46,694 bases of DNA. It comes from Phycisphaerae bacterium (GTDB lineage: Bacteria > Planctomycetota > Phycisphaerae > Sedimentisphaerales > Anaerobacaceae). Shown here piece by piece: positions 6,854 through 46,568 of the stretch; the first letter of the stretch is position 1, and the number at the start of each line of letters is the position of its first letter. The DNA lies in NCBI GenBank assembly GCA_017993835.1, contig JAGOLX010000047.1:1-46694 (forward strand). Direction: 5' to 3'. The position numbers were made by a program, and so were the translations under genes. The notes beneath the pieces were generated by a model, which was given only the letters and a program-made list of their open reading frames with translations, was not told the DNA's origin and ran no database searches.

Positions 6854-7050
6854 CGGATGCATGCCCGTTCCTGCGGCCTTTCGCAGAGTGACGAAGCGTC
6901 GCCCCGACTTTGTCATTCCTGCGCACGCAGGAATCCAGGAACCGCGGGACCGGGCGCGACCGGAGGAGTGGATTCCCGCTTACGCGGGAATGACATTCCG
7001 AGGTTTCCATGAACACCTATTGCACGCGCGCAGATGCGGTCACGCACCCC
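6854..7050. repeat. 197-bp MITE-like repeat, copy 1
   Basis: This stretch is similar end to end to 21357-21553, also 197 bp. It has imperfect terminal inverted repeats (GG-TGC-TG-CC...CTGCG) and two inner hairpins: GTCATTCCTGCG/CGCAGGAATCC at 6912-6936 and GGATTCCCGC/GCGGGAATGAC at about 6970-6994. There is no coding capacity. It lies between the PGRP-like gene and the recJ promoter. Confidence 0.75.
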
Positions 7051-21356: not shown

Positions 21357-21553
21357 CGGGTGCATGACCATTCTGGCGGCCACTCACATGACGACGAGAC
21401 ACGGGCCGGACACTGTCATTCCTGCGAAAGCAGGAATCCAGGAACCACAGAATGCGACAGATCCCAGGAAGTGGATTCCCGCTCCCGCGGGAAGGACAAT
21501 GCAGGTGCTCCGTGACCCCCTCCTGTACCCGCGCAGATACGGACGTGCACCCG
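21357..21553. repeat. 197-bp MITE-like repeat, copy 2
   Basis: The same length and order as copy 1 at 6854-7050. Terminal inverted repeats read CGGGTGCATGACC...TCTGGCGG and, from the other end, CGGGTGCACGTCC...TCTGCGCGG. The two inner hairpins are at 21415-21440 and 21472-21497. It separates the CotH gene from the HTH promoter. Confidence 0.75.
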
Positions 21554-22164: not shown

Positions 22165-23328
22165 TCACCACAGGGCACCGTCCCAGTCCTTCCAGACAGG
22201 GTCGAAGCCTTTGCTCTTGATCGCAGCAACCACTTCGCTCGGACTGCGGCTGTCGCTGACGTCGAACTGGCCGGTGTGGGCGTTGGGGTCGGTATAGCCG
22301 CCCGGACTCGTTCGACTGCCCGCGCTGATCCGCGTGACGGCAAGCTCAATCAGATGATCCCTCAGCCAGGCGGGTTCCCGCGTGGACAGCACGATTCCCG
22401 CGTCGGCGAAGCACAACCGCAGCGCCAGCATCATCTGGACGAGGTTCCTGTCGCTGAGCAGGTGCGGGAACTCCGTCGAAGGCACGCCGCACGCGGGCCG
22501 TAGCCTCGGGAAGGAGAACGAAACGCGGGACTGCCAGTATCGGCGCATCAGATACGATGCGTGTTCCGCCAAAGCCAACGTCTCCACTCGCCAATCCGCC
22601 AGGCCCAGGAGCACGCCCAGCCCGAGCTCCCGCATGCCCGCCCGTCCCATGTCGTCGAACGCGCGAAGTCGCCTGTCGTAATCCGCTTTCGGGCCGCCCA
22701 GATGGTAGCGGGCGTACACGGCGCGGTCGTATGTCTCCTGGTAGAGCGTGCAACCTTGAATGCCCGCGTTCGCAAGCTGTCCATACTCCGCTTGCGACAA
22801 CTGAAAGATCTCGATGCTGATGAAGCTGAACTTGTTCCGGAGACGTCGGGCCAGGTCTGCCAGGTAGGCGACGGTGATGAATGCCCGGTCCTCGCTGCTG
22901 ACCAGCAGGATGTCCCGATAGCCTTCAGCCGCGAGGATCTCCGCCTCCGCGACGGCCTCCCCGACAGACAAGCGGACCCGCATGAACTCGTTGTCGTGGT
23001 TGAAGCCGCAATACTGGCAGCGATTGACGCAGTAGCTGGACAGGTACACCGGCGCGTAGAGCCTCATGGCCCGACCGAAACGTTGAACGGTCAGACGCCG
23101 CGAGATCTGGGCCATCTGCTCGATGTACTCCGCCGCCGCTGGCGAAACGAGCGCCAGCAGCTTCTCCTGATTGTACGAGCCCGGTCGGGAGGCCAGCGCC
23201 GCCTCGATATCGTGCGAAGTCACTTCGCGCAGTCGCTGGTCCCAAGAGCCCCGGTCCGCGTCGAGGCGATGATTCGCCAGAATGAAACCGATGGATTGTT
23301 GATTGCTGATTGTTGATTGTTGATTCAT
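22165..23328 (-). CDS. thiH: 2-iminoacetate synthase (radical SAM)
   Basis: ThiH cleaves tyrosine with a radical-SAM iron-sulfur cluster to give dehydroglycine for the thiazole ring of thiamine. At 387 aa it is near E. coli ThiH (377). The CxxxCxxC cluster is SSYCVNRCQYCGFNHDNE with Cys100, Cys104 and Cys107. The C-terminus has RISAGSRTSPGGY. It is third in thiS-thiG-thiH, 22 bp after thiG. The first 12 codons (NQQSTISNQQS) are made of GATTGTT-type heptamers, and the start ATG itself falls in the last unit. Because the unit is 7 nt, a gain or loss of one would shift the frame. No other in-frame ATG precedes the conserved part. Confidence 0.95.
   Translation of the reverse strand: MNQQSTISNQQSIGFILANHRLDADRGSWDQRLREVTSHDIEAALASRPGSYNQEKLLALVSPAAAEYIEQMAQISRRLTVQRFGRAMRLYAPVYLSSYCVNRCQYCGFNHDNEFMRVRLSVGEAVAEAEILAAEGYRDILLVSSEDRAFITVAYLADLARRLRNKFSFISIEIFQLSQAEYGQLANAGIQGCTLYQETYDRAVYARYHLGGPKADYDRRLRAFDDMGRAGMRELGLGVLLGLADWRVETLALAEHASYLMRRYWQSRVSFSFPRLRPACGVPSTEFPHLLSDRNLVQMMLALRLCFADAGIVLSTREPAWLRDHLIELAVTRISAGSRTSPGGYTDPNAHTGQFDVSDSRSPSEVVAAIKSKGFDPVWKDWDGALW
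23294..23328 (-). repeat. Heptamer tract at the thiH start (five units)
   Basis: On the plus strand the units are GATTGTT, GATTGCT, GATTGTT, GATTGTT, GATTCAT, contiguous and including the thiH start codon. The same unit occurs four times at 26328-26355 in thiF. Confidence 0.9.
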
Positions 23329-23350: not shown

Positions 23351-24121
23351 TCACTCTCTCAAGAAACCCGTTAGCGGGCTCGATGCCTCTGCCGTGCGCT
23401 GCGGCGCCCGCGGTCCGGCCTCGTAGGCCTTCCTACCCGCCTCGACGGCCAGCTTGAACGCGACCGCCATCTCGACGGGATCGCCCGCGGTGGCGATGGC
23501 GGTGTTCACGAGCACCGCATCGGCGCCGATCTCCATGGCCTCGGCCACGTGCGAGGGCAGACCCAGGCCCGCATCCACCACGACCGGGACCGTGCTCTGC
23601 TCGATGATGATCTCCAGCGACGCGCGGGTCTTGAGGCCCTGGTTGGAGCCGATGGGACTGCCCAGAGGCATCACCGTCGCGGCGCCGACGTCCTGCAATC
23701 GCTTGGCGAGAATCGGGTCCGCGTTGATGTAGGGCAGGACCACAAAGCCCTCCTTCACAAGGGTCTCGGCGGCCTTGAGCGTCTCGACGGGACAGGGCAG
23801 CAGGTAGTACGGGTCCGGCGTCACCTCCAGTTTGAGCCACTCGATCCCGGTGGCCGCGCGGGCCAGACGCGCCAGACGGATTGCCTCTTCCGCGGTTCGG
23901 GCGCCCGACGTGTTGGGCAGCAGCAGGAATCGATCCCGGTCGATCTCCCGAAGGGTGTCGTCGGCAGGGTTGTCGATATCGACCCGGCGAAGCGCCACGG
24001 TCACGATCTCGGCGCCCGAGGCGGCCAGGGCCTTGGCCATGACCTGCGGCGAGGAGAATTTGCCGGTCCCGACGAGCAAACGCGAGTCAAATGTCCGTCC
24101 TGCGATAGTCAGCTTGTCCAT
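23351..24121 (-). CDS. thiG: Thiazole synthase
   Basis: ThiG joins 1-deoxy-xylulose-5-phosphate, dehydroglycine and sulfur from ThiS thiocarboxylate to make the thiazole phosphate of thiamine. It is 256 aa, typical, with a TIM-barrel pattern. The Schiff-base lysine is Lys97 ([10 protein letters not shown]; Lys96 in Bacillus). Other motifs are [52 protein letters not shown] and the end of the barrel [10 protein letters not shown]. The ATG at 24121 lies 4 nt beyond the thiS stop, so translation is probably coupled. Part of the TPP-riboswitch operon. Confidence 0.97.
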
Positions 24122-24125
24122 CAGT

Positions 24126-24338
24126 TCACCCGCCTCCCATCAGTTTGATCAGCTCGATCTGCTGGCCGTCCTGGAGTTCGGTCCGATGGAATTCGTCCCG
24201 GCGCACGATCCGCCCGTCCACCTCTGCGACGACTGCGTTCGCTCCGACGCCGAGCGCGTCCAGCAACGCCGACAGCGTGCCGGGCATTTCGTCCGGGTCG
24301 AACCGCCGCTCGACGCCGTTGACCTTCAGCGACTTCAT
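24126..24338 (-). CDS. thiS: ThiS sulfur-carrier protein
   Basis: ThiS is a small ubiquitin-fold carrier whose C-terminal glycine is adenylated by ThiF, converted to a thiocarboxylate and used by ThiG. It has 70 aa, with family pattern VNG...L--LL-ALG and [15 protein letters not shown]. The C-terminus is LMGGG, one Gly longer than the usual GG end. The end is still Gly, so it should work, but the reactive residue shifts by one. The ribosome-binding site GGGAGG lies 4 nt before the ATG at 24338 and is part of a CTCCCGGGAG palindrome. First gene of the operon; a 164-bp repeat sits just upstream. Confidence 0.93.
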
Positions 24339-24355
24339 AGAACCTCCCGGGAGAC

Positions 24356-24519
24356 GGAAAAAGGCAGGTTGGGCCTGCTTGGAGGGGGAAAAATCTCTTG
24401 GCTCGATTTTTCCCCCTCAGACCCCGGTCGCGCATCGAGCGCCTCGTCGTGTCCGTTCCTCAACGAAATCGAACCAGGAGATTTCGTTGAGGAATATAGG
24501 CCCGACCTGCCTTTTTTCC
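24356..24519. mobile_element. 164-bp MITE-like element in the thi leader
   Basis: Terminal inverted repeats of 21-22 bp match except for one indel and one mismatch: 24356-24376 (GGAAAAAGGCAGGTTGGGCC plus T) and the inverse of 24498-24519. Inside, two hairpins lie next to the ends: GAGGGGGAAAAATC/GATTTTTCCCCCTC (24382-24418) and CCTCAACGAAATC/GATTTCGTTGAGG (24458-24492). Each has a 9-nt loop of the type TCYTGGYTC in opposite orientation. There is no coding capacity. It lies between the riboswitch terminator and the thiS ribosome-binding site. Confidence 0.75.
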
Positions 24520-24528
24520 ATCACAAAC

Positions 24529-24559
24529 AAAAAAAAGCACTCCCGCGAAAGGAGTGCTT
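24529..24559 (-). terminator. Intrinsic terminator of the TPP riboswitch
   Basis: On the minus strand AAGCACTCC-TTTCGCG-GGAGTGCTT is followed by a run of T (24536-24531). It begins about 13 nt after the aptamer, as expected for the OFF state of a transcription-controlling riboswitch. Confidence 0.85.
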
Positions 24560-24571
24560 GCAGACTTGCCC

Positions 24572-24654
24572 GAGCCTCCCTTCGCAGGTCCTAACCTGAT
24601 CAGGTTCTTAGGGTCATCGCTCGATACGCGATCTCTCAGCCGGCGCGACAGGCC
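24572..24654 (-). ncRNA. TPP riboswitch (THI element)
   Basis: The minus strand contains the conserved blocks of the thiamine-pyrophosphate aptamer in order: GCCGGCTGAGAG, ATGACCCTAAGAACCTGATC and AGGTTAGGACCTGCGAAGGGA. These match the CUGAGA, ACCUGAUC and GCG-AGGGA consensus. It precedes thiS-thiG-thiH with an intrinsic terminator directly downstream. TPP binding should favour termination. Confidence 0.95.
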
Positions 24655-24695: not shown

Positions 24696-24724
24696 ATGAT
24701 AGAGTCGTTCGCGGCTTTTAGCAA
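24696..24724 (-). promoter_or_regulatory. Putative promoter of the thi operon
   Basis: On the minus strand TTGCTA (24724-24719), 17 nt, TATCAT (24701-24696), about 40 nt upstream of the aptamer. Confidence 0.5.
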
Positions 24725-25300: not shown

Positions 25301-25456
25301 GATCAGTCCTTGCGACCTTCTTGGTTATCCCACCTTCCGACCTTCTTTTCTCTGTGCCCTTTGCGGCCAAGACCTCTTTGACGAGGGCAACTCTCAAGAT
25401 TCCCCAGGCGGGGGCGGCTGGGCTACAGGTTCTGGTCTTTCGCAGGGCATACGTAC

Positions 25457-25477
25457 GGGCGGGTTTCAAACCCGCCC
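25457..25477. repeat. Perfect palindrome GGGCGGGTTT-C-AAACCCGCCC
   Basis: Ten-bp arms around one base, flanked by GTAC and CTAC. It is of the short intergenic palindrome type common in this window. Confidence 0.7.
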
Positions 25478-25511
25478 CTACCAACGCGCGATCCAGGGCC
25501 GTGTCGTGTGG

Positions 25512-46415: not shown

Positions 46416-46475
46416 AGACCTAGCCAAGGCATCCTGTAGGTGTAGCTGGGGAAAGAACGGGTCGCAGCAGGCGCA

Positions 46476-46553
46476 TGTCATTGCGAGCGCAGCGAAGCAA
46501 TCTCGTGCTCGGGAGGTTGAGATTGCTTCGTCGCGGGGCTCCTCGCAATGACA
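46476..46553. repeat. 78-bp inverted repeat (GCGAGNNNNGCGAAGCAATCTC type)
   Basis: TGTCATTGCGAGCGCAGCGA and AGCAATCTC on the left pair with GAGATTGCTTCGTCGC...CTCGCAATGACA on the right, around a short centre. This repeat type is known from many unrelated bacterial genomes as an intergenic hairpin. Confidence 0.8.
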
Positions 46554-46568
46554 TTCGGCAGGGAAAGA

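Follow-up and report, generated by a model that had tools for sequence, protein, structure and literature searches.

A palindromic repeat between a TPP riboswitch and thiS in a Phycisphaerae genome, and in-frame copies of its family within protein genes

In the thi leader of the Phycisphaerae genome studied here (G000), a long inverted repeat stands between a riboswitch terminator and the start codon of thiS, and the question is whether this repeat belongs to the regulator or was inserted, and what kind of element it is. The window, meaning the whole stretch of 46,694 nucleotides that was analysed, carries on its minus strand, in this order, the TPP aptamer, the terminator, the element, thiS, thiG and thiH; all leader and thi coordinates below refer to that strand. 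The aptamer (RF00059, 24560..24682) was scored by cmscan at 61.6 bits against a gathering score of 54.3 and lies 5' of the thi genes, the two properties on which it was classed as a TPP riboswitch. It is followed by an intrinsic terminator with a ten-pair stem and a T run (24535..24559), which bears out the clear aptamer and terminator of the initial annotation. Downstream are thiS (24126..24338; TIGR01683 with 54.3 bits, and PF02597), thiG (23351..24121; PF05690, 362.5 bits) and thiH (22165..23328; TIGR02351, 433.6 bits). Promoter-like hexamers, TTGCTA-17-TATCAT, were placed 5' of the aptamer (24696..24724) by a consensus scan only, which returned two such pairs in the leader region against 0.1 expected. 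With its aptamer and terminator upstream of thiS-thiG-thiH the locus resembles other RF00059 switches, and it differs in the palindrome, added later downstream of an otherwise ordinary switch.

The palindrome is a copy of a repeat family, subfamily A, at 24356..24519 (nhmmer, 141 bits), with arms that probably reach 24353 and 24522. Its terminal inverted repeat (P1) consists of a 5' arm at 24498..24522 and a 3' arm at 24353..24376, both located by an inverted-repeat match with the outermost bases placed by eye; the segments 24358-24376 and 24498-24516 are 19 nt long and 95% complementary, and by eye the arms extend over about 24-25 positions with one bulge and one wobble. Between them lie two hairpins, P2 (24456..24494, loop UCCUGGUUC; 15 perfect pairs, 24456-24470/24480-24494) and P3 (24382..24418, loop GAGCCAAGA; 14 perfect pairs, 24382-24395/24405-24418). 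These arms and perfect stems agree with the 164-bp element with terminal inverted repeats and two hairpins described previously, and the RNA fold of the stretch has z = -5.5 against shuffles. The loops, 9 nt each, had also been called related, which holds for the thi copy (two occurrences of the loop motif in the window, with 0.01 expected) but not for loop-loop complementarity as a feature of the family. A kissing interaction, for which 8 of 9 positions could pair in the thi copy, was considered and dropped when the number was found to vary from 4 to 9 of 9 without pattern over 31 copies. Other strong inverted repeats, possibly of further dispersed families, lie in the window at 6911-6995, 21472-21503, 25453-25481 and 46472-46557.

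The thi loci of all eight relatives within the genus were retrieved by a search with the thiG protein, and the leader could be read in seven; the eighth, G006, was left out as the fetched stretch held no recognisable aptamer. RF00059 was matched in seven of the nine fetched loci of relatives. All seven readable leaders have the aptamer and the terminator (the latter judged by eye); from there a short spacer leads to the thiS start, and the element is absent. Because riboswitch and terminator stand without it in 7/7 readable relatives, the element in the thi leader is a later insertion, absent from the relatives seen, and the stretch from terminator to ATG in G000 is therefore new. This is the opposite of a sequence conserved upstream of thiS in distant relatives and found nowhere else, the pattern that the initial annotation had named as marking a part of the regulator.

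The element separates the riboswitch terminator from the thiS start codon and is adjoined by a 3' tail, GTCTCCCGGGAGGTTCTATGA (24335..24355), which holds the Shine-Dalgarno motif GGGAGG and the thiS start codon and is common to the copy at C15:58083 of G000. The tail is not ancestral in the thi leader, since exact matches of the 18-mer CTCCCGGGAGGTTCTATG in G000 are confined to two places, the thi leader and C15:58063, both adjoining a copy of the element; nor was the tail found in the thi leaders of the relatives. In G000 the GGGAGG in the tail lies near the ATG; the best that the relatives show is a weaker GGGTGA (by eye). This argues that the insertion probably replaced the thiS ribosome-binding site and supplied the present Shine-Dalgarno sequence. 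The initial annotation had proposed that the element may tune thi expression or impair it; it is just as possible that the inserted DNA took the place of the former initiation site, since GGGAGG lies outside the hairpins, in a tail common in G000 to only one other copy. In the mechanism proposed, a subfamily A copy would have landed between terminator and thiS, leaving the upstream riboswitch control in principle unaffected; thi transcripts that read through would carry a stable hairpin array, and the probable entry site of ribosomes would be the GGGAGG in the tail, immediately beyond the array. The other copy with this tail (C15:58063-58226; L071:2960-3130) is truncated at its 5' end and lies directly 5' of a small zinc-ribbon-like reading frame (by eye).

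A profile made from the initial DNA matches found 41 places of at least 50 bits in G000, 34 of them full length (nhmmer), and two more full-length copies were added by a protein-level search; the canonical unit is 163 nt. These 41 places support the mobile-element part of the earlier reading. DNA-level matches occurred in 7 of 61 genomes, all of one genus and G000 included, and a profile of the encoded peptide matched 9 of 161 genomes of the order, seven of them from the same genus and two from other genera within the family. In an evenly drawn sample of 392 genomes across the phylum, where each genome had a limited number of its candidates scored, G000 itself was the one match, and 17 loci were found in four assemblies among named genomes, all labelled Planctomycetota, Phycisphaerales or Phycisphaerae. 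Across the genus, the order, the phylum sample and the named genomes, matches were seen only in Planctomycetota; in a check for viral carriage, none of 24 pattern stretches in viral contigs was confirmed as the element. The MITE-like insertion of the initial annotation therefore stands as regards dispersal and the empty site in relatives, but not as a repeat mainly of leaders and intergenic regions, as many copies lie in frame in protein genes. The thi element is very probably a copy of a non-autonomous dispersed palindromic family of one Phycisphaerae genus, whose subfamily A lies largely in genes, keeps their frame and would be translated as about 56 extra residues; this family of coding palindromes is the larger finding, beyond what the leader alone revealed.

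Copies within genes were found by the codon-usage score on both flanks together with a search for frames spanning each copy, and the host genes were recognised by Pfam or NCBIfam. Many copies lie within conserved protein genes, in frame and stop-free, and add about 56 residues. Hosts in G000 are PurQ, the glutamine-dependent NAD synthase (NadE), PdxB, an FeFe-hydrogenase, a GH127 enzyme and an FtsK-like protein; a URO-D family methyltransferase of G000 is a host on the other strand, and a methylenetetrahydrofolate reductase protein of relative G004 also holds the element. The insert consensus is SEKGRSGLYSSTKSLGSISLKNGxDExLDARPGFEGEKSNQEIFPPQSRPDLPFSx, and within the 12 selected in-gene copies of this alignment (A2) the peptide is conserved with 85% mean column identity. 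Where domains were recognised, the insert lies between domains or where the match has a gap. In the hydrogenase it follows the FeFe small-subunit domain and precedes a thioredoxin-like domain, in PdxB it precedes DUF3410, in PurQ it lies within the amidotransferase domain and in NadE within the nitrilase-like domain. Subfamily A would enter at loops and domain linkers, keep the frame and be translated as a tolerated segment of about 56 residues.

The PurQ insert is missing in 8/8 relatives, where only a few residues separate AGILPG from the conserved stretch that follows. That of NadE is missing in 7/7 judged relatives, six with a two-piece match whose gap of at most 108 nt is too short for the element and one, G001, read directly; G002 gave no match and was left out. 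The PdxB insert is missing in six relatives and present in G005, and G004 gave no orthologue. With the thi leader, empty alleles were observed at four loci. Insert sites are shared in PdxB (G000 and G005), GH127 (G000 and G004) and a TPR protein (G000 and G005), and therefore these inserts predate species splits or the sites were re-used; in a cytochrome/propeller protein the inserts of G000 and G001 occupy different sites. The insert-bearing PurQ, PdxB and hydrogenase (its left part cut by the locus) fall below the curated cut-off of their best family model, a warning to annotators that such host proteins can miss curated family cut-offs.

Frame was classified for 60 copies, 36 from G000 and 24 from a hand-picked list of relatives' loci, leaving out partial copies (e.g. 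L147, L153, L154, L156) and duplicate loci. Coding calls were made with a codon score trained on seven window genes and with author-chosen thresholds, and the subfamilies were assigned by the author's own motif rule, under which C91:96326 is intermediate. Of the 34 subfamily A copies free of large internal inserts, 21 are flanked on both sides by coding sequence on the same strand; 18 of these are in frame and open, one is in frame with one stop and two are out of frame. The remaining A copies comprise two between opposite-strand genes, nine with one-sided coding, the thi copy among them, and two with neither side clearly coding, so that some of subfamily A lies outside genes. Four further A copies with large inserts were scored as one in frame, one out of frame and two other. 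Subfamily B (n=22) has three copies with both flanks coding on one strand, none of them in frame, 11 with one coding side and eight with neither. The 18/21 in-frame open copies exceed a chance of 1/3 (binomial p = 1.1e-6), and 18/34 in frame for A against 0/22 for B gives a Fisher p of 1.5e-5; the most-used frame is open in 25/34 A copies and in 10/22 B copies. Selection against broken genes, which presumably removes frame-breaking insertions, would alone give an in-frame excess, but the contrast between A and B suggests that A differs in kind.

The three shared inserts were compared with the rest of their genes. In PdxB, the insert has a dS of 0.051 and the rest of the gene 0.658, with dN at 0.067 and 0.077; in GH127, dS is 0.375 and 0.795, and dN 0.161 and 0.128. 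The TPR gene, in which part of the element was replaced by other sequence, has a dS of 1.166 in the insert against 0.698 in the rest and a dN of 0.508 against 0.147. These three (PdxB, GH127 and TPR) gave no consistent indication that purifying selection acts on the peptide, and the inserts show no clear protein-level constraint beyond the open frame, which may therefore be mere survivorship. In the PdxB and GH127 pairs, silent sites have diverged less in the insert than in the host gene, which fits a constraint at the DNA level or exchange between copies.

It may be asked whether the family is an ordinary intergenic MITE whose in-gene copies survived by chance and have nothing special about them. 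Survivorship would likewise leave only in-frame copies, the peptide is without purifying selection, and subfamily B, with its 0/22, does behave as an intergenic repeat; such an origin is nevertheless unlikely, given the proportion of A copies in frame in genes, metabolic enzymes included, and the excess of open most-used frames in A over B. Features of a MITE are present in the terminal inverted repeats and the lack of a transposase gene. As to target-site duplication, no general direct repeat was found at the ends of the 60 copies, where there is a small excess of 2-nt repeats and, in five copies, a 4-nt repeat that is the palindromic GATC (by eye). A search for a parent transposon by the end motif gave 99 end-like matches in G000 against six for a control pattern, some of them showing first-family ends beside other repeats; no transposase was recognised by eye in the 13 regions read. 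To call the element a MITE strictly speaking, a term that implies a parent transposon and duplicated target sites, would go beyond the present support.

The family of coding palindromes is not alone in these genes. NadE also holds in frame a second palindrome with 40-nt arms that are 85% complementary, whose peptide (...QKVRRSEGEKV...VRPSDLLNFSPSSS) has 12 matches in G000, ten of them in stop-free frames of at least 409 aa. Copies of this second palindromic family lie at L006:2161-2282 (G000 C91:52978-53099), at L002:1270-1382 and in L182; it is in frame in several proteins, of which NadE and a PfkB/HAD protein also bear the first family, and the end motif of the first family flanks several of its inserts. 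The C110 gene L182 (G000 C110:3223-4487; 1069 codons), called methylenetetrahydrofolate reductase because it resembles the G004 protein, has two composite inserts, each built of nested, different repeats, with the frame kept throughout; G004 has a plain subfamily A element at the first of these two sites. Another reading, that the in-gene copies are cut out of the mRNA or bypassed by ribosomes and so yield no extra peptide, has a model in the untranslated palindromes of Magnusiomyces mitochondria, as portrayed in the part of PMC6649704 drawn on here. Extreme hairpins in essential enzymes and weak or absent selection on the peptide would suit such a bypass, but neither frame retention nor the absence of stops would then be needed, and different repeats nest in one gene with the frame still kept, all of which makes it very unlikely.

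Pairing was examined in an alignment (A1) of 31 of the 34 full-length copies, leaving out C110:9243, C91:60964 and C71:12006, which have large internal inserts. Over these 31 copies 95.3% of pair cells are standard pairs (98.4% of cells paired in P2 and 95.4% in P3), and 33 of 60 pairs have changed on both sides; neither value was reached in 500 shuffles. Sliding the partner by one column brought pairing down to 53-59%, and this control and the per-pair counts weigh more than the shuffles because related sequences can beat shuffles without any structure. Between the shared PdxB inserts there are ten differences: a single pair has changed at both its bases and no pair at just one, and this paired change alters two amino acids (by eye). 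Between those of GH127 there are 30, with five pairs changed on both sides and five on one. Departures from pairing are G-U in 39 cells and A-C in 43. Function as a one-strand RNA was rejected as the main cause of the covariation, as it predicts more G-U than A-C, and because G-U departures do not exceed A-C the counts point to pairing upheld at the DNA level, by correction or by a function of two-strand DNA. The arms might be kept complementary through a transposition intermediate or template-switch correction, together with exchange between copies. The closest relative of the G005 PdxB insert is the C16 copy of G000 and not its orthologue (94.5% against 93.9%), a small difference that suggests such exchange of sequence may occur.

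Strong covariation, a stable fold and a position between terminator and start codon are also what a structured regulatory RNA, or a part of the thi expression platform, would show. This is scarcely credible for an element that is missing from the thi leader in every readable relative, occurs at about 40 other sites, has no preferred RNA strand by the G-U and A-C counts and is covered by no Rfam family in the scan of the window. An artefact of metagenome assembly is extremely unlikely: repeats often break such assemblies and several copies lie near contig ends, but others are mid-contig with coding sequence on both sides, and the PdxB, GH127 and TPR sites recur in different assemblies, the PdxB insert in genomes assembled independently.

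Among known repeats, REP/BIME are hairpins of 20-40 bp with a terminal GTAG or CGTC tag, and the unit here is at least four times longer. Protein-coding palindromic repeats exist in Wolbachia, as a reference title states. To our knowledge, in-frame palindromes in conserved genes come chiefly from Rickettsia and Wolbachia, which are obligate intracellular with small genomes; the present genus is, as far as known, not obligate intracellular. Rickettsia palindromic elements (RPEs) are presented, in the portions of PMC2229807 and PMC10969869 used here, as short dispersed palindromes with terminal inverted repeats that lie in frame in conserved genes and encode a conserved peptide, with several families per genome; the former gives a length of 105-146 bp, and similar portions of PMC3733652 and PMC5896051 give further background. 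The present family shares the short dispersed palindrome with terminal inverted repeats, the in-frame insertion in conserved genes whose relatives lack the insert, and the conserved encoded peptide. It differs in its unit of 163 nt, outside the length range in that portion of PMC2229807, in its two internal hairpins and in its host, a Planctomycetota genus with genomes of about 4-8 Mb; compensatory change keeps its arms complementary, whereas in Rickettsia elements the identity of the repeats decays over time according to the part of PMC6649704 cited. The family thus appears to work like RPEs, likened by features and not by sequence, so that membership is not claimed.

Correia/NEMIS repeats of Neisseria form, in the same portion of PMC2229807, two related size classes, one open-frame in genes and one stop-bearing between genes, and are by this description comparable to subfamilies A and B; as a difference, no target-site duplication was found in the element here. 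ERIC, YPAL/RU-2 and the Coxiella QMITEs are given, in the excerpts of the literature used, as MITE-like repeats with open frames and occasional in-frame fusions, whereas more than half of the subfamily A copies examined here are in frame in genes, core enzymes among them. In the portion used, a 2024 review regards a similar process as "conceivable" in other prokaryotes (PMC10969869), and no report of in-frame coding palindromes in Planctomycetota was found in the open-access literature, covered through titles and the starts of abstracts, with subscription journals mostly outside.

We suggest tentatively, as a possible reading and a somewhat doubtful one, that subfamily A is a mobile element adapted to genes, which would have arisen from a relative found only outside genes (B), gained an open frame and invaded core enzymes of a bacterium outside Rickettsia, its palindrome being kept by DNA-level correction at a cost in amino acids; with the nested families it would go on supplying proteins with new segments, and it would have given the thi leader a new ribosome-binding site. 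Coding palindromes are now seen in a Planctomycetota genus with large genomes, where empty alleles, shared inserts and a non-coding sister subfamily occur side by side, and the system allows tests of the compatibility of elements with genes, of translation and of the upkeep of a palindrome inside coding sequence.

Further repeat-like segments were seen in some of these genes. Two are in frame, one with peptides like PAAPGWGKTPPRAGVP in L011, L021 and L182 and the other with STGILPV...GRDAHA at about codons 153-177 of L004; the one of these that lies in PdxB is missing from six relatives, which match directly across it. Two copies of the first family lie at protein ends, L029 (G000 C110:9243) and L021 (G000 C91:69858), one just past a PEP-CTERM-like anchor and one past a signal-peptide-like start (by eye).
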